A stretch of DNA of 55,238 bases from NCBI GenBank assembly GCA_030950375.1, contig JAUZRN010000032.1:1-55238 (forward strand), read 5' to 3'. This DNA comes from Rhodothermus sp. (GTDB taxonomy: Bacteria > Bacteroidota > Rhodothermia > Rhodothermales > Rhodothermaceae). Each line of letters opens with the position of its first letter. Positions within the stretch are counted from its first letter, which is position 1. A program made the translations under genes and the position numbers. The notes beneath the pieces were generated by a model. The model was not told the DNA's origin, did no database searches, and was given only the letters and a program-made list of their open reading frames with translations. Shown here piece by piece: positions 809 to 11,464 of this stretch.

Positions 809-1314
809 AATATTTGCTGCGTAGTCTCCACCCGAGCCCGTTCAGTGCACTTCGGTTTCCGTCCGCAACCGGAGATCGCGTCCAGAGGCTCCCACATAGC
901 GCATACGGCGACCGGTTGCGCTCATACCGGCATGGCGCTCAATTATCGATGGGAGGTGCAACTTCCTTCGTCCCGCCAGGCGCAAGGATCACGCGTCGGA
1001 AGCCTACCCGTTGCCGCACGGTCATAGGGACCGGCGGATCTTTCGGTGGTCCCAGCTAGACCTGCGGCACCTCGCTCCCCGCCTCCTGTGTTGCCCACAA
1101 AAAAACGCACGCGGAAGCCATCCTCATTGGACCTTATGGATTAAGCCAATCGGTCAAATACCTGAACAAACGCACGCTACGAACACATCGAAATACGCCC
1201 GGCGTCATCGCACATACAGAGACAGCTATGCCTTTCCTGAGTGCTTGCGTTTTGTGCGGGAAGGTTGTACCATTTTGGCAAGCCGGTGCCACGTTTGCTC
1301 ACAAACAGCTCCAT
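809..1314. other. 0.5 kb gap without a convincing gene
   Basis: No ORF here has good support. The frame of the upstream gene stays open past its stop (809-1027) but shows no recognisable product. A 31-codon ORF starts at 932 without a clear ribosome binding site. On the minus strand, 830-1060 contains two fragments vaguely like the end of a formylglycine-generating-enzyme fold (a GFRRV near 990-1007 and a G-S-L-W, R-S-A, L-G-W-R-L pattern near 829-905), separated by an in-frame stop. This may be gene debris. The promoter of the following operon should lie here, but I see no convincing -35/-10 pair. Confidence 0.4.
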
Positions 1315-2646
1315 ATGGCCATGATCCGCCCCCAGTATATCGAAGACGTGATCGACCTGACCGATCCGGCCCAGAACCACCTCCTGAACATGAGCCTCGA
1401 AGAAGCGCGGGCCCGCGTACGCTCCGGAGATCCCTCCGCCGTGCGGACCATCGAAGGCTCGTTTGCGCTGGTGGCGCGCGACGGCCAGACAGTACGCCTG
1501 GCCCGCTCGATGGACCGGCCCATGCGCTATTTCCTGGCCAAACGCGACGACGGTCCGGCGCTGGTCGTGGCGCATCGCATCGAAGAAATCCACCGGTGGC
1601 TTCAATCTGTCGGCCTCGCCGATCAGTTCCATCCAAGCTACACGCGCATGGTCCCCGCCCATTATGTGGTCACGCTGGAGCTGATCGGCTGCCCGGATCC
1701 GGCGCCGGCCTACACCCGCTTTTTCGAAATTCCTACAGAAACGCTGCCGCCGGATCTTCCTACAATCGGCCGCTACTATATCGGTGCCCTTCAGGAAGAA
1801 ATCCGTCGCTGGCTCCTGAGCATCCCTGAAGATGAACCCATCGGTGTAACGTTTTCCGGTGGCATCGATAGTGGCTCCGTTTTCCTGGTGACCTACCACA
1901 CTATGCTGGAGCTGGGCATGAATCCTGGCCGACTCAAGGCCTTCACGCTGGATCTGGGCGATGGCCCCGATCGCGATCAGGCCTTCACCTTTCTGCAGAA
2001 GCTGGGTCTGGAGCTATTCTGGGAGCCCATAGAGGCCGGACCCGAGCTGATTGACATTCGGGAGGTGGTGCGCATTGTCGAAGATTACAAGCCCCTCGAT
2101 ATCGAATCGGCTGCGATGCACTATGCGCTGGCCCGGGCCTTACGCCAGCGCTACCCGAACTGGAAATACCTGCTCGACGGAGAAGGGGGCGACGAAAACC
2201 TGCGCGACTATCCCATTGAGCAGAATCCAGAGTTGACCGTCTATAGCATCATTAACAACCCCCTGCTCTATCACGAAGGCTGGGGTGTGGACAAGTTCAA
2301 GCACTCGCTCACTTACACCGGCGGTCTCAGTCGCTCCTACACCCGTACGTTTGCCATCAACCGACACTTCGGCTTCGAGGGCTTCAGCCCTTATACGCGG
2401 CCGAACGTGATCGAAGTGGCCGAAAAGATCCCCTTCGCCGAACTGACCGGCTACGACAAAACAAAGCTGTACCGACTCAAGGGCGAAGTGGTTTATCACG
2501 GGATTAAAGCCATCACGGGCTTTGAGATGCCCGTGTTTGAAAAGCGCCGGTTTCAGCATGGCGCGCTACCCGAAATGCGGTTGCGCGAATTGATCCCGCC
2601 CGAACGTCAGCTCCGACGCATGGTGGAGGATCTGTTTGTAGTATGA
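1315..2646 (+). CDS. Asparagine-synthetase-like amide ligase lacking glutaminase Cys
   Basis: An ATP-pyrophosphatase enzyme of the asparagine synthetase B/lasso cyclase/beta-lactam synthetase superfamily, about 443 residues. The synthetase domain is intact by motif: PP-loop SGGIDSG at residues 181-187 and GEGGDEN at 289-295, equivalent to GDGGDE in AsnB. The N-terminal 130 residues look like the second half of the glutaminase (Ntn) domain, but no Cys2 follows the start, so it should not hydrolyse glutamine. It may instead adenylate a carboxylate and join it to an amine on another molecule. ATG codons lie at 1228, 1315 and 1321; 1315 is chosen because the extra 29 residues from 1228 resemble nothing in the family. 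The stop overlaps the next ATG (ATGA at 2643-2646). Substrate unknown. Confidence 0.75.
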   Translation: MAMIRPQYIEDVIDLTDPAQNHLLNMSLEEARARVRSGDPSAVRTIEGSFALVARDGQTVRLARSMDRPMRYFLAKRDDGPALVVAHRIEEIHRWLQSVGLADQFHPSYTRMVPAHYVVTLELIGCPDPAPAYTRFFEIPTETLPPDLPTIGRYYIGALQEEIRRWLLSIPEDEPIGVTFSGGIDSGSVFLVTYHTMLELGMNPGRLKAFTLDLGDGPDRDQAFTFLQKLGLELFWEPIEAGPELIDIREVVRIVEDYKPLDIESAAMHYALARALRQRYPNWKYLLDGEGGDENLRDYPIEQNPELTVYSIINNPLLYHEGWGVDKFKHSLTYTGGLSRSYTRTFAINRHFGFEGFSPYTRPNVIEVAEKIPFAELTGYDKTKLYRLKGEVVYHGIKAITGFEMPVFEKRRFQHGALPEMRLRELIPPERQLRRMVEDLFVV

Positions 2647-3611
2647 TCGAGCTGACGCGCTGGGAGACACTCACACCACTGGCCCGCACGCGGTTGATCC
2701 GGAAGCTACGGCCACCCCGGGCCAAAATCAATCCGGAACGCCCGTACGCCTTTCATCACGAGCTGGAACGGGCACCCGACGGGCGCCTGGAACGCGTCAA
2801 CGTGGTCTTCCTGACCAACCGGGAATGTCCGTGGACGTGTACCATGTGTGACCTGTGGCGTCACACCACCACGACGCCGGTTACCGCCGATCAGCTCCTG
2901 CGTCAGCTCGACTATGCCCTGGAACACCTACCCGAGGCCGATGCCATCAAGCTCTACAACAGCGGCAGTTTCTTCGATCGGCTGGCCATCCCTCCGACTG
3001 CCTACCAGGGCATTGCCGAGCGACTGCGTGGCTATCGTCGCATCATCGTCGAATCACATCCAGCTCTAATCGGCCCCCGAACGCTGCAATTTCAGGAGCT
3101 GCTTGAGGGACAGCTCGAAGTGGCTATCGGCGTTGAATGCATTCACCCGGACGTGCTCAACGCGCTCAACAAACGCCTGACCATAGCCGATCTGGAACAG
3201 GCCGTCACCTGGCTACATGCGCACCACCTGCTGATCCGGGCATTCATTCTGCTCAAACCACCCTTTTTACCTGCCGCCGAAGCGCTGACATGGACCTGCC
3301 ACACCGTGCGCTGGGCCGTGACGCACGCGATACAAATCATCGTGCTCATTCCTACCCGTACCGGCAACGGGATCATGGACCACCTTGCACGGAGTGGACA
3401 ATTTGCACCTCCAACGCCTGACGACATTGAAACAGCCACTGCTTTTCTGTTTGCCCAACAAGCACCGGTACGACTGCTCGATACCTGGGACCTGCCCCGT
3501 TTCTACCCATGCCCGGACTGTGCTCGGCTCCAGCAGGCCCGCTTTGCACGCATGAACCAGACGCAAACCTGGGAACCCGCTGTCCACTGTCCTACCTGCA
3601 ATCCGCCATGA
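2643..3611 (+). CDS. Radical SAM protein with C-terminal CxxC pairs
   Basis: A 322-residue radical SAM enzyme. The cluster motif CPWTCTMC (Cys62, Cys66, Cys69; CxxxCxxC) follows a strand ending NVVFLTNRE, and an N-S-G-S-F-F-D stretch lies near residue 105. This arrangement recalls COG1244, the Fe-S oxidoreductase family that includes archaeal archaeosine synthase subunit RaSEA, but I assign it from memory of motifs only. The C-terminus has CxxC pairs at 290/293 and 316/319 that could hold zinc or an auxiliary Fe-S cluster. It overlaps both neighbours by 4 bp (ATGA at each junction), so it is translationally coupled to the AsnB-like and FAD proteins and probably acts on the same substrate. Confidence 0.8.
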   Translation: MIELTRWETLTPLARTRLIRKLRPPRAKINPERPYAFHHELERAPDGRLERVNVVFLTNRECPWTCTMCDLWRHTTTTPVTADQLLRQLDYALEHLPEADAIKLYNSGSFFDRLAIPPTAYQGIAERLRGYRRIIVESHPALIGPRTLQFQELLEGQLEVAIGVECIHPDVLNALNKRLTIADLEQAVTWLHAHHLLIRAFILLKPPFLPAAEALTWTCHTVRWAVTHAIQIIVLIPTRTGNGIMDHLARSGQFAPPTPDDIETATAFLFAQQAPVRLLDTWDLPRFYPCPDCARLQQARFARMNQTQTWEPAVHCPTCNPP

Positions 3612-5137
3612 ATAGCCACTGCGACGTAGCCATTCTGGGGGCCGGCTTTGGAGGGGCGCTGCTGGCCCTGATGCTTCGACGCCGAGGGTTGTCTGTTATA
3701 TTAATTGAAAAAGGCCGCCCACGTTTTGCCATCGGTGAATCCTCAACACCGCTGGCCAATCTCTACCTGGAGCAGATCGCCCGGACGTTCGAGTTACCCG
3801 AACTACTTCCGCTGACCAAATATGGCCACTGGAAAACCACCCATCCGGAGCTGCCCGTAGGCAAAAAGCGAGGCTTTACGTTTTTCTGGCATCGTCCCGG
3901 CCGTCCCTGGACTGCGTACGTGGATGGTCATCCCGCCTACCTGCTGGTAGCTGCCTCCCCGCACGATGCCATTGCCGACACGCACTGGTACCGTCCGGCT
4001 TTTGATAGCTACCTGACGGCGCTGGCGCTCCGCGCCGGCGTGCGCTACCTGGAGCCGGCCAGCCCCATAGCAGTCGACGTCGATGCTGGTGACGTACAGC
4101 TTCGGATCGCAACGCCTGCTGGGACACGCACACTTGCCGCCCGCTTTGTGGTGGATGCCACGGGACCGACCGCCTGGCTGGCCCGCCATCTGGGCTATCG
4201 GCCCGAGCCACACCCGTACTTGCCAGAACGCGTCGCTATATTCGCCCACTTTCGCAACGTCGCCCGCGCCGACGCCTGGCTTGACGCCCGACGAGACCGC
4301 TGGCCTTACCAACCCGACGCGGCGGCCGTCCACCACCTGCTTGAAGAAGGCTGGGCCTGGATACTTCACTTCGATCACGGCATCACCAGTGCCGGACTTT
4401 CCCTGTGGGCCGACCGCCTGCCTGCCCGAGATCCCGCAACCTGCTGGTATCTTATACTGGCTCGTTATCCGTCGCTTCAGGCGCTCTTTGGCCGGTCTGC
4501 TCCGCTCTATCCCCTGCGCATGATCCCCGAACGTCCAACCCTTTTCCGCAAGCTGGTCGGCCCCGGATGGGCTCTGCTTCCAAGTGGCGCAGGCGTGCTC
4601 GATCCCCTGCTCTCTACCGGCAATCCACTCACACTCCTGGGCGTGTGGCGACTGGCTGAACTACTTGTCCAACATTGCGCAGCACCACCGGCCGAAGCGC
4701 TACAGCACTATCAACAACAAACGCTGCACGAACTCCAAACCACAGCGCGCCTGCTGGGAGCCCTCTGGCGCGTATTGCATCAGCCAGCCCCCTTCACATG
4801 GCTCGCCAAGCTGTACTTCGCAGCCGCCAGCTTCCGAGAAACGCGGATACGGCTCGGCCGTGAATCCGGAATTCCGGGCTTCCTGCTTACCGATCACCCT
4901 GTCTTTTGCCAGCACCAGGATCACCTGCTGCGACACGTCGAGCAGCATCAGCTGCTCCCACAAGATGCCATACAGAAAGCCCTGGAGCCGTTCGATGTCG
5001 CCGGCCTCTGCACCGATCGCGAAGGCTTCTACCCGGCGCGTGCCGAAGACGTGCTGGACGCCTGCCATAAGATTCCCGCTTCGCGCGAGGAAGTGTGGCG
5101 TAGCCTGAAACAGAGCGGGTTTCTGGCGCCTGCCTGA
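3608..5137 (+). CDS. FAD-dependent oxidoreductase of the flavin-halogenase fold
   Basis: A 509-residue flavoprotein. The N-terminal dinucleotide-binding motif is GAGFGG (11-16), followed by IEKGRPRFAIGES (GES at 43-45), VVDATGP (181-187) and a distal G-V-L-D-P-L-L-S-T-G segment near 335-345 that contacts FAD in tryptophan-halogenase-like monooxygenases. A WAWI stretch at 249-252 matches the start of the halogenase WxWxIP motif but lacks the final proline in place. The halogenase catalytic lysine cannot be assigned safely; Lys71 and Lys76 are candidates. It may be an oxygenase or dehydrogenase, not a halogenase. The start at 3608 overlaps the radical SAM stop by 4 bp; in-frame codons back to 3509 lie inside that gene. 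Confidence 0.75.
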   Translation: MNSHCDVAILGAGFGGALLALMLRRRGLSVILIEKGRPRFAIGESSTPLANLYLEQIARTFELPELLPLTKYGHWKTTHPELPVGKKRGFTFFWHRPGRPWTAYVDGHPAYLLVAASPHDAIADTHWYRPAFDSYLTALALRAGVRYLEPASPIAVDVDAGDVQLRIATPAGTRTLAARFVVDATGPTAWLARHLGYRPEPHPYLPERVAIFAHFRNVARADAWLDARRDRWPYQPDAAAVHHLLEEGWAWILHFDHGITSAGLSLWADRLPARDPATCWYLILARYPSLQALFGRSAPLYPLRMIPERPTLFRKLVGPGWALLPSGAGVLDPLLSTGNPLTLLGVWRLAELLVQHCAAPPAEALQHYQQQTLHELQTTARLLGALWRVLHQPAPFTWLAKLYFAAASFRETRIRLGRESGIPGFLLTDHPVFCQHQDHLLRHVEQHQLLPQDAIQKALEPFDVAGLCTDREGFYPARAEDVLDACHKIPASREEVWRSLKQSGFLAPA

Positions 5138-5636: not shown

Positions 5637-6422
5637 ATGCGCATCCTGGACATCGACCTGGACTTCTTTCTCAATAAGGTACAATTCTGGCCCGGATTCG
5701 GACGGCCAGCAGATCCCGAGCTGCATCCCTGGCCCCCCCACAAAGTGCGCGATTTTCTGGAGCATCGATGCGGCCTGCGACGCGATCGACCATTGCCCGG
5801 CCTGATCGTAGAAGAGCATCACGAGATCTTTTTCGACTGGCGACGGCGCATTCAGGAAGGCCGCCTACAGCCGCCCTTCGAGGTCGTGCACATCGACGCC
5901 CATGCTGACCTGGGCTTCGGCGATGCAAGCGTCCCCTACGTGGTAACCGAGCTGCTGAGCCTTCCCCTGAAGACGCGGGCTTTCCCCAGGGTGGGTGGCC
6001 GCGAAGGCCTGGGCCCCGGCAACTATCTGCTCTTTGCCATCGCCTGTCGCTGGATCAGCCGTCTGACCTACGTCTATCATCCAGGACGGTACCCTGACCT
6101 GCCCGAACACATCGTGAAGTTGGACGCCCGGGGCGAAGGGATCATTCAGCTTCCCTGGTATGGATGGCGTTCGCCTGAAACATTGCAGAGGCACTGGCCG
6201 GACAAGCCTTTGGCCCTGGAGCCCCCGGTCCTCTATCGCGAAGTGTCCGGTTCAACCCTTCAGCACCTTGAAGGCCCCTTCGACCTGCTCTATATCGCCC
6301 GTTCTCCCGCCTATACGCCCGCTGAAGCAGACCGTCTGCTGGAAGTGTTTTGCGAATACATCAAAGCTCCTGCAGTTCACCCGCCTTATATGACCAACCA
6401 ACCTGGCGCTTTAACCGTTTAG
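5637..6422 (+). CDS. UPF0489 family protein (arginase-like fold)
   Basis: A 261-residue protein whose N-terminus MRILDIDLDFFLN and central HIDAHADLG (about residues 85-93) match the UPF0489 family, which shares metal-binding DxDxDxF and HxDAHxD signatures with arginase/deacetylase-type hydrolases. The aspartates and histidines of both motifs are present, so it probably binds a divalent metal, but its substrate is unknown. A third acidic patch, F-D-L-L-Y-I-A-R-S near residue 220, sits where the family carries its C-terminal conserved block. It is divergent from the 5197-5487 gene and followed by the promoter of the susC gene, so it looks monocistronic. Confidence 0.75.
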   Translation: MRILDIDLDFFLNKVQFWPGFGRPADPELHPWPPHKVRDFLEHRCGLRRDRPLPGLIVEEHHEIFFDWRRRIQEGRLQPPFEVVHIDAHADLGFGDASVPYVVTELLSLPLKTRAFPRVGGREGLGPGNYLLFAIACRWISRLTYVYHPGRYPDLPEHIVKLDARGEGIIQLPWYGWRSPETLQRHWPDKPLALEPPVLYREVSGSTLQHLEGPFDLLYIARSPAYTPAEADRLLEVFCEYIKAPAVHPPYMTNQPGALTV

Positions 6423-6546: not shown

Positions 6547-9500
6547 ATGAGAAGGTGGTTGCAACACATGCTTTCACTTGCCCTGATAGGGACGCTGTTG
6601 CCTGGTCTTGTGTGGGCGCAGGAAGCTATTATTCAGGGTAAGGTCACCGATGAAAACGGGGAGCCACTCCCGGGTGCGAACGTCGTCGTTGCTGAGCTGA
6701 CGATCGGAAGCGCTACCGATATCGATGGAAACTATTCATTTACCGTACCCGCCAATCTGGTCAATGGGCAGACGGTCACCCTGGTAGCCCGGTTTGTGGG
6801 CTATAAGCCAGCGGAGCAGCAGTTTGAACTGACGCCAGGTCGGCATACGTTTGATTTTGTGCTGGAGCCTGACCTCTTGCGTCTGGAAGAGGTGGTGGTT
6901 ACAGGGGTGGCAGCCGAAACGCCACGCAAGAAGCTTTCCTTCACGGTCGACCGGGTCGATACAGAGAAGCTGCAGCAGGTGATTGCGCCAGATCCGGGTA
7001 CGGCCCTGCAGGCCAAGGTTGCCGCCGCTGTGATTGTACGGCCCACCGGTGAACCTGGCCAGTCGCCCTCGATTCGGCTGCGGAGTGCTACATCCATCAC
7101 GGGGAGCCAGGCACCTCTGATCATTGTGGATGGCGTGATCATGGAGGGCTCGCTGGCCGACCTGAACGCCGACGACATTGAGTCGATCGAAGTGATCAAG
7201 GACGCGGCAGCGGCCTCCATCTGGGGTTCCCGTGCCGCTAACGGCGTCATCCGCATCTTCACGAAGCGCGGAACAAATGTGGCCGCAGGCCGCACCCAGG
7301 TAACCATCCGGAATGACTTCGGGATCTCGTCGCCCTATCGCTTCATCGACATGGCCGAAAGCCACCCCTATCTGGTGGCCGAAGTCGACGGGAAGTTGCG
7401 CTTTGTTGACGAAGACGGTAACCCGCTGGGTCCGGGCGACAACCCGGTGCTGGACCCGGATGGCATTGCAGACAACCCCTGGCCTTGTATTCCTCAACCC
7501 GTCAAGCAGCCAGACGGCACCATCTCAGAGGAGCTCTATTGCAATCTGAGTGATCCGCAGCGGGACTTCTTCACCTCGAATCCTACTTTCAACAACTATA
7601 TCTCAATCGCCCAGAATACGCAGAAAACCAACTTCATGGCCTCCTTCAGCAATACGCGGGAAGGGGGTATCCTGCGGGAAGTGACGGGCTATACGCGCCA
7701 GAACTTCCGGATCAACCTGGACCATCGCATCCTGAACAACCTGGACTTCTCGGCGAGCATGATGTATGGCCAGTCGGAACGGGACGATGTGGTGGAAGGT
7801 CCGGGCTCGCCGTTCTATGGACTGCTGTTTATGCCTCCCAATGTCAACCTGGAAGCTCCCAACGAAGAGGACGGATCGAAGTATAACTGGGATGCGGCCT
7901 GGGTCTATGGCCTGTCGCTGGAAATGAATCCGCTCTACGAGCTGGCCAACCGGGATCGCAAGCGTCGCGTTGTACGCCAGCTGGCCAGCTTCAAGACGAA
8001 CTGGCGGCCGTTCCGCTGGCTCATGCTGGAAGGTCTCATCGGTTTGGACCGGCAGCAGACCTACTGGAAAGACCTCTTCCCGCGGGGTTATCTGAGTGAT
8101 AACCCGGCCGACTTCAAGGGGCGGTTGTACCGCTTCAATCAGGACAATCGCGCGATCAACACCAGCTTTACTGCGTTGCTGTCCTACAGCGTGGGGGATC
8201 TGAACACCAAGCTCAAACTGAGCTACCTCTACGAAGACGAGCGTACAGAGCAGTTCAGCGTAACGGGCCGTGAGTTTGCCGTCAGCGGCGTGGAAGACCT
8301 GGGAGCCACGGTCGGCGACAAGACGATCGATTCCTATATCGCCGACATTCGCTCGGAAAACTACTTTGCGATCCTGACCTTCGACTTTAAGGATCGCTAC
8401 ATTGGCGACGTGATGATCCGGCGCGACGGCTCCTCGCTCTTCGGGCCGGATGCACGCTGGGCGACCTACTACCGCGCTTCAGCAGCCTGGCGTCTGAGCG
8501 AAGAGCCGTTCTTCAACGTGCCGGGCATCAATGAATTCCGGCTGCGGGCTTCGATCGGTACGGCCGGGTTGCGTCCGGGCTTCTCGGCCCAGTATGAAAC
8601 CTTCTCGATCGTTGCAGGCAACCCGGTGAAAAACACGCTGGGGAACCGGCTCCTTCGGCCGGCCAAGTCGACCGCCATCGAGTATGGCGTCAACATCGAC
8701 TTCCTGGATCGGTACTCTTTCCAGGCCAGCTATGCGCTGAACAAGACCGAGGATCAGATTCTGCTGGTGCCGCTACCGGCGGCTACCGGATATCGTAGCC
8801 AGTGGCGGAATGCCGGGACGCTCGAAGGGAACACCTTCGAGATGCAGTTGAACACGATTCTGGCGCAGCGGGACGACTTCAGCTGGACGCTGGACATCAC
8901 CTTCGACCGCACGCGCCAGAAAATCACGGACCTGTTTGTACCGCCCTACCGGACAGGTTTCTACTACATCGCGCCGAACGAAACCTTCGGCATCATTTAC
9001 GGTGAGTACTTCGCCCGAAGCCTGGACGACATTGCTCCCATGCTTGCCCCGGATGCAGCGACGCCATATGCGGGCATGTCGTTGGACGACTTCATGGTCA
9101 ATGAGGATGGCTTCGTGGTACTGAAAGATGCTTATGGCACGCCCAACGAAAAGCCCATCAAAGTGCTGGATCCGGCCTCCGGGAACCCGGTCCTCCGCAA
9201 GATCGGGGACTCGAATCCGGACTTCAACATGGGCTTTGCCACGAACCTGCGCTATAAGAACTTCAACCTCTACGCGCTGGTCCAGTGGCAGAAGGGCGGT
9301 GATGTCTATAACAACACACGCCAGTGGATACTGCGCGAGCTCCGTGGCGGGGACGTAGATCAGCGGGGTAAGTCGGTCAAGAAGCCCTGGGGCTACTACG
9401 CCACGCTGTACAACGTCAACGCCACAAACAACTACTTCGTCGAGGACGGTGGATTTGTGAAGCTGCGGGAGGTATCGCTCACCTACACACTGGGGCGGCG

Positions 9501-9702
9501 GGCGCTGGCTGCCTTTATGCCCTCCCTGCAACAGCTCCGGGTGGGTGTCACCGGACGTAATCTGCTGACCTTCACGGGCTACAAAGGATACGACCCTGAA
9601 TCAGCCCGCAACGTAGGTAGTGACCCCACCACCTTTGGTGGCGACAGCTACGGATATCCACTGTTCCGCTCCTTTACGTTCACCGTCCAGCTGGTATTCT
9701 AA
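6547..9702 (+). CDS. SusC/RagA-type TonB-linked outer membrane transporter
   Basis: A 1051-residue outer membrane transporter that imports large nutrients, usually glycans or peptides, with energy from TonB. A signal peptide (1-24, ending LVWAQ) precedes a carboxypeptidase-regulatory-like domain (about 27-110, IQGKVTDENGEPLPGANV) and a TonB box-like LEEVVVTG (117-124). The plug domain follows (about 135-245) with IIVDGV and IEVIKDAAAASIWGSRAANGVI, then a 22-strand barrel ending in the aromatic FTVQLVF. The length is typical for SusC. It pairs with the SusD gene 85 bp downstream; no glycoside hydrolase or protease lies nearby, so the substrate cannot be read from context. Confidence 0.93.
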   Translation: MRRWLQHMLSLALIGTLLPGLVWAQEAIIQGKVTDENGEPLPGANVVVAELTIGSATDIDGNYSFTVPANLVNGQTVTLVARFVGYKPAEQQFELTPGRHTFDFVLEPDLLRLEEVVVTGVAAETPRKKLSFTVDRVDTEKLQQVIAPDPGTALQAKVAAAVIVRPTGEPGQSPSIRLRSATSITGSQAPLIIVDGVIMEGSLADLNADDIESIEVIKDAAAASIWGSRAANGVIRIFTKRGTNVAAGRTQVTIRNDFGISSPYRFIDMAESHPYLVAEVDGKLRFVDEDGNPLGPGDNPVLDPDGIADNPWPCIPQPVKQPDGTISEELYCNLSDPQRDFFTSNPTFNNYISIAQNTQKTNFMASFSNTREGGILREVTGYTRQNFRINLDHRILNNLDFSASMMYGQSERDDVVEGPGSPFYGLLFMPPNVNLEAPNEEDGSKYNWDAAWVYGLSLEMNPLYELANRDRKRRVVRQLASFKTNWRPFRWLMLEGLIGLDRQQTYWKDLFPRGYLSDNPADFKGRLYRFNQDNRAINTSFTALLSYSVGDLNTKLKLSYLYEDERTEQFSVTGREFAVSGVEDLGATVGDKTIDSYIADIRSENYFAILTFDFKDRYIGDVMIRRDGSSLFGPDARWATYYRASAAWRLSEEPFFNVPGINEFRLRASIGTAGLRPGFSAQYETFSIVAGNPVKNTLGNRLLRPAKSTAIEYGVNIDFLDRYSFQASYALNKTEDQILLVPLPAATGYRSQWRNAGTLEGNTFEMQLNTILAQRDDFSWTLDITFDRTRQKITDLFVPPYRTGFYYIAPNETFGIIYGEYFARSLDDIAPMLAPDAATPYAGMSLDDFMVNEDGFVVLKDAYGTPNEKPIKVLDPASGNPVLRKIGDSNPDFNMGFATNLRYKNFNLYALVQWQKGGDVYNNTRQWILRELRGGDVDQRGKSVKKPWGYYATLYNVNATNNYFVEDGGFVKLREVSLTYTLGRRALAAFMPSLQQLRVGVTGRNLLTFTGYKGYDPESARNVGSDPTTFGGDSYGYPLFRSFTFTVQLVF

Positions 9703-9714
9703 GGCAAACAGGAA

Positions 9715-9738
9715 GGGTGCCGGCATGAGCCGGCACCC
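9715..9738 (+). other. Stable hairpin between susC and susD
   Basis: Perfect 10-bp arms GGGTGCCGGC (9715-9724) and GCCGGCACCC (9729-9738) around an ATGA loop, 13 bp after the susC stop. No T tract follows, so it is more likely an mRNA-stabilising or attenuating element that changes the susC:susD ratio than a full terminator. Confidence 0.7.
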
Positions 9739-9787
9739 TCTACCTTCATAAGCAAAGAATCTTGCGAATCAAAACCACTGAAGCGAT

Positions 9788-11464
9788 ATGATGATGCAGC
9801 GATTGCGTTGGGTCCTGGCGGTACCAGTGCTTACCGCCTTCCTCTGGGGTTGTGCGGATCTGAGCGTGCAGAACCTGAACGAGCCAGACGCGGAACGCGT
9901 GCTGGCCACCCCGGACGACGTCAAGAACATCCTGGCGGGCGGCTTTCTGACCTGGTGGCAGGCCAACCAGGGCTATCCGGGCATGGGGCCGGCCCTGATC
10001 ACGATGGCCGACCAGACGACTTCTTCGTGGGGGAACTTCTCCATGAAGGACCTGTCGTCGGAGCCCCGGGTGGCCCTGAACAACAACTCCACCTACCGGT
10101 ATGCCTCCACGCACCTGCGGCCCTGGCAGCGGCTGTATTCGGCCCTGTCCATCGCCAACGACGTGCTGCGGCGGCTGGATGAAGGGCTGGTGATCAACAA
10201 CGAGACAGAAACCCAGATGGTGCGGACGGCAGCCAAGCTGCTGCAGGGACTGTGTCTGAGTTCGCTTGCGTTGTTCTATGACCGCGCCTTCATTGTGGAT
10301 GAAAACACAGACGTAGCCACTTTGGAGTTTCCTGAGAACTCTAATTATCAAGAGGTCGCGGCTGCAGCGATTTCAGCCCTCCTTGAGGCGGCTCAGCTGG
10401 CTCAGAACATGGCCGTCCCCTTCCCTGATAATTACTTTAACGGCCTAGACCTGGACGGCCAGAAAGTGGCCCAGCTGGCCCATACGATGGTGGCGCGGAC
10501 CATGATGCTTTCGGCCCGCACACCGCAGGAGAATGCCCAGACCGACTGGAACGCGGTGCTTGCGCATGCGGAGCAGGGCATTTCTGGCTGGGATTTTGCG
10601 CCTCAGGGTGATCAGGATCAGTGGTGGGATCTGATCAAAGCCTATATGCAACGTCCAGGTTGGTCGCAGGCTGACCTGGAACTGCTGGGAATGGATCCCA
10701 ACCTGCTGCCCGCTCTCGAGGAATGGCTGGCCACGCCGCTGCAGGATCGTACGCCCACGCCTTTTGAAAACCGGCTGGCTGACACCTCCCCTGCAGACGC
10801 CCGTATTCCGGGCATTGGCGGCGTCACCGCGTACTTCGTCTACGAGTCCGGTTCTCCCTTCCGGGCCAACCGGGGTACCTACCATTTCAGCCGCTGGCGC
10901 CACATTCGGGAAGGGCACCTGGACTTCCTCGGGCCCATGCGGTATGCCACCGAGACGGAGAACGACCTGATGATTGCCGAAGCCCTGATCCGTACAGGTG
11001 GCGATAAAGCGCGGGCGGCTCAGCTCATCAACAAGACGCGTGTGAATAACGGAGGTCTTCCAGCCCTGACAGGCGATGAATCGGATCAGGAGCTCCTGGA
11101 AGCCCTCATGTATGAGCGGCGGATCGAGATCGGCTGGACCGCGGCGGGTATCGGGTTCTGTGATCGGCGTCGTTTCGACTATCCGGGGCCGGCCCACTAC
11201 GACAACGATCCTTCCAAGCCGGGAATCTTCCAGCACAAGCCCGGCACGCTGCGCCACTTCCCGGTTCCGGGACGGGAGTTAGAGGTACTGCAAAAGCCGA
11301 TTTATACCTTCGGCGGTGCAGCCGGCGAGATGAAGAAGGCGCCCGACTGGAACAACGACCGCGAGTTGTTGACCGAATGGGTACAGGCCCTGCGGGAGCA
11401 CCTGAACACGTTCGGTCGTCCGATTTCGGTGCGTGAGTTCCTGTCGATGGTCGACACGCAGTAA
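9788..11464 (+). CDS. SusD/RagB family surface lipoprotein
   Basis: A 558-residue nutrient-binding lipoprotein that caps the SusC barrel on the cell surface. The N-terminus MMMQRLRWVLAVPVLTAFLW leads to a lipobox with Cys about residue 21 (LWGC). After it, NLNEPDAERVLATPDDV is the typical start of SusD-like domains, followed by helical TPR-like repeats (for example around 100-160) and the conserved late segment with RRIEIGWTAAG (about residue 440), usually written ERR.E..... in this family. It lies 85 bp after susC in the same direction and ends just before a strong terminator, so the pair forms one unit. Confidence 0.92.
   Translation: MMMQRLRWVLAVPVLTAFLWGCADLSVQNLNEPDAERVLATPDDVKNILAGGFLTWWQANQGYPGMGPALITMADQTTSSWGNFSMKDLSSEPRVALNNNSTYRYASTHLRPWQRLYSALSIANDVLRRLDEGLVINNETETQMVRTAAKLLQGLCLSSLALFYDRAFIVDENTDVATLEFPENSNYQEVAAAAISALLEAAQLAQNMAVPFPDNYFNGLDLDGQKVAQLAHTMVARTMMLSARTPQENAQTDWNAVLAHAEQGISGWDFAPQGDQDQWWDLIKAYMQRPGWSQADLELLGMDPNLLPALEEWLATPLQDRTPTPFENRLADTSPADARIPGIGGVTAYFVYESGSPFRANRGTYHFSRWRHIREGHLDFLGPMRYATETENDLMIAEALIRTGGDKARAAQLINKTRVNNGGLPALTGDESDQELLEALMYERRIEIGWTAAGIGFCDRRRFDYPGPAHYDNDPSKPGIFQHKPGTLRHFPVPGRELEVLQKPIYTFGGAAGEMKKAPDWNNDRELLTEWVQALREHLNTFGRPISVREFLSMVDTQ

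Follow-up and report, generated by a model that had tools for sequence, protein, structure and literature searches.

A conserved bacterial gene trio combining an AsnB-fold ligase that lacks the glutaminase nucleophile, a RaSEA-like radical SAM enzyme and a halogenase-related flavoenzyme

Organization of the three-gene locus

Three consecutive genes on the forward strand of a 55,238-nucleotide stretch of DNA from Rhodothermus sp. (contig JAUZRN010000032.1, positions 1 to 55,238; hereafter, the window), which belongs to a 68-contig genome of 3.03 Mb, represent an apparently undescribed but widely conserved enzyme set that brings known superfamilies together in a new combination. Gene 1 (1315..2646, 443 amino acids) encodes an AsnB-fold, ATP-dependent amide ligase that lacks the start of the glutaminase domain, where the nucleophile is located; gene 2 (2643..3611, 322 amino acids) encodes a radical S-adenosylmethionine (SAM) enzyme similar to RaSEA with a C-terminal CxxC...CxxC motif; and gene 3 (3608..5137, 509 amino acids) encodes a flavin adenine dinucleotide (FAD) enzyme that falls into the halogenase group of PltM, CtcP and CmlS and carries an altered WxWxIP motif. 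An earlier interpretation made from this DNA alone (hereafter, the sequence-only reading) had recognized these three frames and the two ATGA stop/start overlaps that join them, and both overlaps are indeed present in the sequence, on the forward strand, at 2643..2646 (genes 1/2) and 3608..3611 (genes 2/3). An overlap of -4 like that of genes 2 and 3 is also the most frequent junction in the related loci according to our table of gene junctions. For gene 1, the ATG at 1321 is conserved in four loci from the same genus and, for this reason, is most likely the start codon, rather than position 1228 at which the longest open frame begins.

The ligase

The product of gene 1 contains the asparagine synthase domain (Pfam PF00733, 53 bits) and scores 47.5 bits against the asparagine synthetase profile TIGR01536, far below the cut-off of 267.1. 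The PP-loop SGGIDSG (residues 181-187), the DGEGGDEN motif (residues 288-295) and K410, whose aligned counterpart in AsnB is the lysine of the RQKEQFSDG segment, are all present, and the corresponding SGG(I)DSG and DG[DE]GGDEN motifs along with K410 are invariant or nearly so across 56 relatives, whereas none of the 56 has a cysteine among the first 10 residues that could serve as the N-terminal nucleophile. The proposal that the ligase keeps the PP-loop and GEGGDEN while having lost the glutaminase cysteine thus extends to the entire set of relatives.

An AlphaFold model built from the 56 relatives (predicted local distance difference test score, pLDDT, 85.6), which can be aligned over almost its full length, is best matched by beta-lactam synthetase (Z 24.0, root-mean-square deviation 4.3, 372 aligned residues, 17% identity), in a tie with asparagine synthetases (Z about 23). 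Because the aligned region of both AsnB and beta-lactam synthetase starts only near residue 40, the model indicates that gene 1 lacks the nucleophile strand altogether rather than carrying a mutated one. The protein therefore combines the hallmarks of an AsnB-fold ligase without glutaminase activity, namely a PP-loop of the SGGxDS form, an intact synthetase half and loss of the nucleophile. With asparagine synthetase B, it shares the PP-loop, the DG[DE]GGDE motif and a lysine of the catalytic type, but differs in the lack of the N-terminal cysteine and the glutaminase and in the absence of conservation in the region of the AsnB VEARVPFLD segment. The similarity to beta-lactam and carbapenam synthetases includes the AsnB fold, the disabled glutaminase and the active synthetase half, whereas the differences are that the N-terminus of gene 1 is truncated, that no beta-lactam genes accompany the trio, and that gene 1 has a near-invariant stretch of its own. 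This stretch (residues 301-346, NPELT...LYHEGWG...TYxGGxSR) is the most conserved part of the protein (mean conservation 0.89, compared to 0.70-0.74 elsewhere), is partly missing from AsnB in the alignment and includes a low-confidence region of the model (residues 324-336); it is a candidate for binding the substrate or a partner protein. The overall conservation of gene 1 is high as well, at about 60% identity between phyla.

At one locus (L131), a long frame is fused to gene 1, with no recognizable extra domain in it. At another locus from the same genus (L055:1501-1716, corresponding to G050:C5:22828-23043), a 72-residue fragment that matches gene 1 residues 33-104 with 83% identity lies about 0.65 kb upstream of an intact gene 1 and is probably the remnant of a partial duplication.

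The radical SAM enzyme

Gene 2 matches TIGR01210, the RaSEA profile, with an E-value of 1.2e-30 (106.8 bits, profile positions 6-230 of 313), and is the only match to this profile in its own genome. All 49 gene 2 relatives match it too (best E-value 1.8e-35), whereas other radical SAM families match only some of them, and weakly. For calibration, three archaeal genomes contain proteins that exceed the cut-off of 212.15, and Escherichia coli YhcC, which represents a different radical SAM family involved in tRNA modification, reaches a score of 38.6. Given the score of 106.8 bits against a cut-off of 212, gene 2 is, judging by these profile comparisons, related to RaSEA without belonging to that family. 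The radical SAM cluster motif CX3CX2C (C62/C66/C69) is present in 49 of the 49 proteins. Additional cysteines close to the C-terminus form the CxxC...CxxC motif, with C290, C293 and C316 conserved in 47 of 49 and C319 in 45 of 49 proteins, so that the motif is lost in only a few; it might bind zinc or an iron-sulfur cluster. Hence the description of the protein as RaSEA-like with extra CxxC pairs stands for the family at large.

Gene 2 is modeled as a radical SAM barrel (pLDDT 95.8), with queuine lyase (Z 17.8) and Elp3 (Z 16.9) as the nearest folds, others close behind, and MiaB also among the neighbors. Queuine lyase, Elp3, HydE, BioB and viperin, structural neighbors with tied or close Z values, were not counted as evidence for the family of gene 2, and the nearest folds of this model carry little information on function.

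The search of plasmids detected no gene 1 and only two distant relatives of gene 2. One of these, a full-length relative with 25% identity encoded on the Streptomyces plasmid pFRL5 (L242:11929-13044), belongs to a natural-product-like cluster that encompasses genes for a cytochrome P450, a serine hydroxymethyltransferase, a GT9 glycosyltransferase and a carbamoyltransferase as well as heptose genes.

The flavoenzyme

A profile search of the PDB started with gene 3 identified PltM (E-value 3.7e-66), CtcP (7.9e-58) and also CmlS, and the FAD-binding GxGxxG motif is present, in agreement with the sequence-only reading, which took this protein for a halogenase-like flavoprotein. K87 is conserved in 35 of 35 relatives and aligns with the lysine of PltM GIKLGF (K87), which we take to be the catalytic residue. 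Thus, gene 3 shares with PltM, CtcP and CmlS the overall sequence, the FAD motif and the invariant lysine in GxKxGF, but where these halogenases have WxWxIP, gene 3 has WxWxL[RQHK]F, with leucine at position 253 in 35 of 35 relatives and proline at position 254 in one of 35. Among the NCBIfam models, gene 3 of the window is matched best by QhpG (NF049967), at 83.2 bits with a cut-off of 240, and all 35 relatives match this model as well. QhpG is a halogenase-related peptidyl-tryptophan hydroxylase (PMC7876137). The similarity to this dihydroxylase is that of a common flavoenzyme superfamily, whereas a QhpC-like substrate was not found and the RaSEA-like radical SAM enzyme of the trio is not of the QhpD type. 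On this sequence evidence, gene 3 may catalyze either hydroxylation or halogenation.

Co-occurrence and evolution of the trio

Among 148 genomes of the phylum to which the window belongs (Bacteroidota), strong matches to genes 1 and 2 are found in the same 11 genomes, with the two genes located close together in all of them, and in Acidobacteriota, the sets of genomes with strong matches to the two genes are also identical (15 of 149). Because the genome sets coincide in two independent phylum samples, as expected if the products belong together, the linkage between genes 1 and 2 is far from chance, even if the nominal probabilities ignore shared ancestry. Gene 3 follows in order in 10 of the 11 carriers in the first phylum; in the remaining carrier, G119, the contig breaks off close to gene 2. 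This makes genes 1 and 2 obligate genomic partners and gene 3 a frequent one.

A scan of 84,980 species genomes detected at least 523 relatives of gene 1. The 80 best of these, an uneven sample because they are the most similar to the window, include 32 with the full trio nearby, 19 with genes 1 and 2, and 29 with gene 1 alone. Gene 2 is encoded elsewhere in the genome in 27 of 30 genomes, mostly those that lack gene 2 beside gene 1, and in such positions, it often directly adjoins gene 3. The homologs are thus not found mostly apart, which would have spoken against the grouping of the three genes. Pairs of genes 1 and 2 without gene 3 also occur, and gene 3 reaches a strong score in 10 of 20 genomes of Verrucomicrobiota and Myxococcota tested. 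The full trio is represented also in Acidobacteriota, Verrucomicrobiota and Gemmatimonadota, and the pair additionally in Myxococcota; in viral contigs, relatives of gene 1 were not found, and PHROGs yielded no match. Considering that the genes are kept together across several bacterial phyla, the three enzymes almost certainly carry out one biochemical pathway.

The pairwise identities of the three proteins correlate across 26 shared loci (Spearman 0.73-0.90). In the trees of genes 1 and 3, Rhodothermus groups with Acidobacteriota and Verrucomicrobiota, apart from the members of its own phylum that carry the trio, and a long branch sets it apart from these relatives in the tree of gene 2 as well (all trees were midpoint-rooted, and those for genes 2 and 3 are quick ones). 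This position of the genus in the gene trees suggests transfer of the whole operon between phyla.

Flanking genes and the search for a precursor peptide

Frequent neighbors of the trio in Acidobacteriota are genes for FG-GAP/ASPIC-UnbV proteins and an RnfD-like membrane protein, a pair that we take to resemble UnbV and UnbU of the enediyne clusters, and most of the Bacteroidota trio genomes outside Rhodothermus also carry UnbU/UnbV-like envelope genes with the trio. The RnfD-like (UnbU-like) gene was detected with a strong score in seven Bacteroidota genomes, all seven of which carry the trio, and in eight genomes of Acidobacteriota, seven of which have gene 1; the nominal p-value of this association ignores ancestry. 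At a strong score, this gene is absent from Rhodothermus and from the tested Verrucomicrobiota genomes that carry the trio; we therefore rejected UnbU/UnbV as a core part of the system and consider them accessory. UnbV alone, which is present in 72 of the 148 Bacteroidota genomes and mostly without the trio, is too common to be a specific partner. In some lineages, the RnfD-like protein may use or export the product of the trio. Trio-linked cassettes of this kind outside enediyne clusters are found, for example, at L101:13869-21265, L114:2099-8360, L229:6353-12468 and L230:4643-14168, and in Bacteroidota, the cassette also adjoins SusC/SusD-like genes. In marine Verrucomicrobiota (L103:5221-11800, L106, L116, L120, L127 and L138), the pair of genes 1 and 2 is followed by genes for a hexapeptide-repeat protein, a DCC1-like thiol-disulfide oxidoreductase, LpxK and a lipid A acyltransferase, which is probably lineage synteny.

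Upstream of the trio, the window starts within an open frame (2-808, 268 amino acids, cut by the window start) that is cysteine-rich near its C-terminus. The sequence-only reading had considered a part for this gene, as well as a precursor peptide hidden in the gap 809-1314, and neither suggestion is borne out. The 2-808 frame matches no Pfam or NCBIfam family, and its linkage to the trio is not shared with other loci. The gap does not look like hiding a gene, because this stretch is not conserved even among the loci of the same genus, except for a short promoter-like block just upstream of gene 1 (about 1246..1280, forward strand, cTTGCGTTTTG...GGAAGGTTGTACCATTT), which is the only well-conserved part of the gap in the four Rhodothermus loci. 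A promoter role for this block is putative; a sigma-70 scan gave no support for a promoter at 1246-1280. More generally, examination of 89 loci revealed no conserved small open reading frame within 2 kb of the trio, and the clusters of small frames that were found are confined to close relatives or apparently spurious, so we rejected a precursor peptide in 809-1314 or elsewhere near the trio. The same result speaks against a lasso peptide macrolactam cyclase, and only one of the 56 ligases matches a macrolactam cyclase model, weakly. Both the 2-808 gene and the gap are thus outside the trio system.

Downstream of the trio, the window encodes a UPF0489-domain protein (5637-6422) with a weak match to the FlmR/OhkR peptide arginase family (32.5 bits, cut-off 350); L058 is the only locus with a homolog at the corresponding position. 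Next come a TonB-dependent receptor of the SusC type and a weakly recognized SusD-type protein (558 amino acids, below the Pfam cut-offs; both within 6547-11464).

A hypothetical pathway and its alternatives

We tentatively favor, at somewhat less than an even chance, a single biosynthetic or modification pathway in which a ligation is followed by radical cleavage or oxidation, with gene 3 acting on the same molecule. Gene 1 would use ATP to adenylate a carboxylate, in the manner of AsnB and beta-lactam synthetase, and join it to an amine other than glutamine-derived ammonia, such as the alpha-amine or a side chain of an amino acid. Gene 2 would then act on the resulting amide by radical SAM chemistry; by analogy with RaSEA, the likeliest step would be cleavage of the C-N bond in the appended amine, or else a C-H functionalization at that site. 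Gene 3 would hydroxylate or halogenate a portion of the molecule that is aromatic or otherwise rich in electrons. The ATP-dependent adenylation and amide formation by gene 1 and the radical SAM chemistry of gene 2 are the best-supported parts of this scheme. The substrate would be a small molecule (or RNA) rather than a peptide encoded at the locus.

RaSEA removes the carbon skeleton of the lysine that ArcS attaches, leaving only its nitrogen. This precedent, attachment followed by radical conversion within a complex, is the basis of the order of steps proposed for genes 1 and 2: in the archaeosine pathway of Euryarchaeota, ArcS attaches lysine and forms a complex with RaSEA, which converts preQ0-Lys to archaeosine (PMC11298593). 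The two systems share the pairing of a group-transferring enzyme with a radical SAM enzyme, along with the sequence similarity between gene 2 and RaSEA. They differ in that gene 1 is an ATP-dependent ligase of the AsnB fold whereas ArcS is related to TGT (tRNA-guanine transglycosylase), in that gene 2 scores at half the RaSEA cut-off and has the C-terminal CxxC...CxxC, and in that the trio is bacterial and includes an additional flavoenzyme.

Several points weigh against the proposed pathway. The C-terminal part of gene 2 lies outside the RaSEA match and, together with the score below the cut-off, implies that its reaction may differ; halogenation by gene 3 is doubtful because the halogenase signature is altered; and gene 3 may be an accessory component, given its absence at a strong score from about half of the Verrucomicrobiota and Myxococcota genomes tested.

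Among the alternatives, it is possible, if on the unlikely side, that the trio contributes to a secondary metabolite the other enzymes for which are encoded elsewhere, with gene 1 only amidating or cyclizing a carboxylate, gene 2 performing unrelated C-H chemistry and gene 3 halogenating an aromatic ring. The proximity of gene 3 to the natural-product halogenases PltM, CtcP and CmlS, the beta-lactam synthetase-like fold of gene 1, the pairing of a halogenase with a putative asparagine synthetase in ammosamide biosynthesis (PMC12715798) and the natural-product-like surroundings of the distant gene 2 relative on the Streptomyces plasmid all fit this possibility, but no polyketide synthase, nonribosomal peptide synthetase or exporter is constantly linked to the trio, and the strong conservation and strict co-occurrence of genes 1 and 2 across phyla are unusual for a specialized metabolite.

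We consider it unlikely that the trio modifies RNA, such that gene 1 would charge a carboxylate-bearing tRNA base with an amine and gene 2 would cleave or alter the adduct, as in archaeosine formation. That gene 2 is closest, among named families, to a tRNA-modifying enzyme, that Elp3, MiaB and queuine lyase (an enzyme of queuine salvage) are among its structural neighbors, and that the level of conservation of gene 1 suits a constant macromolecular substrate are all compatible with this scenario; however, the fold similarity among radical SAM enzymes is unspecific, no RNA-binding domain or linkage to tRNA genes was seen at the trio, the distribution is patchy (11 of 148 and 15 of 149 genomes), and a halogenase-like partner would be unusual in RNA modification.

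Modification of a peptide or protein, such as a redox cofactor precursor or an envelope protein of the UnbV type, with gene 3 acting like QhpG, appears highly doubtful: the QhpG match and the linkage of UnbU/UnbV-like genes in Acidobacteriota and Bacteroidota point in this direction, but gene 3 is closer to PltM and far below the QhpG cut-off, no small frame is conserved near any trio locus, and UnbV mostly occurs without the trio while UnbU is missing at a strong score from Rhodothermus and all Verrucomicrobiota trio genomes tested.

Implications

A more specific version of the favored pathway, in which the trio is a bacterial counterpart of the ArcS/RaSEA logic, also seems unlikely on present evidence: the ligase would append an amine donor to a carboxylate and the RaSEA-like enzyme would cleave the C-N bond of the donor and leave its nitrogen in amide form, as part of a new cofactor, a new metabolite or a new RNA modification that several phyla have in common and that is coupled in some lineages to UnbU/UnbV-like envelope proteins. 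Each enzyme of the trio belongs to a known superfamily, and the pathway itself seems to be undescribed; in line with the expectation of the sequence-only reading, no named pathway with these three enzymes turned up in the open-access papers searched. These observations place a RaSEA relative in bacteria, with a ligase as its partner, and the strict co-occurrence of this enzyme with a glutaminase-less ligase predicts new amide-forming or radical chemistry. The carriers of the trio belong to environmentally abundant phyla, some members of which are in culture, and the trio may also help to reveal what the UnbU/UnbV pair does.

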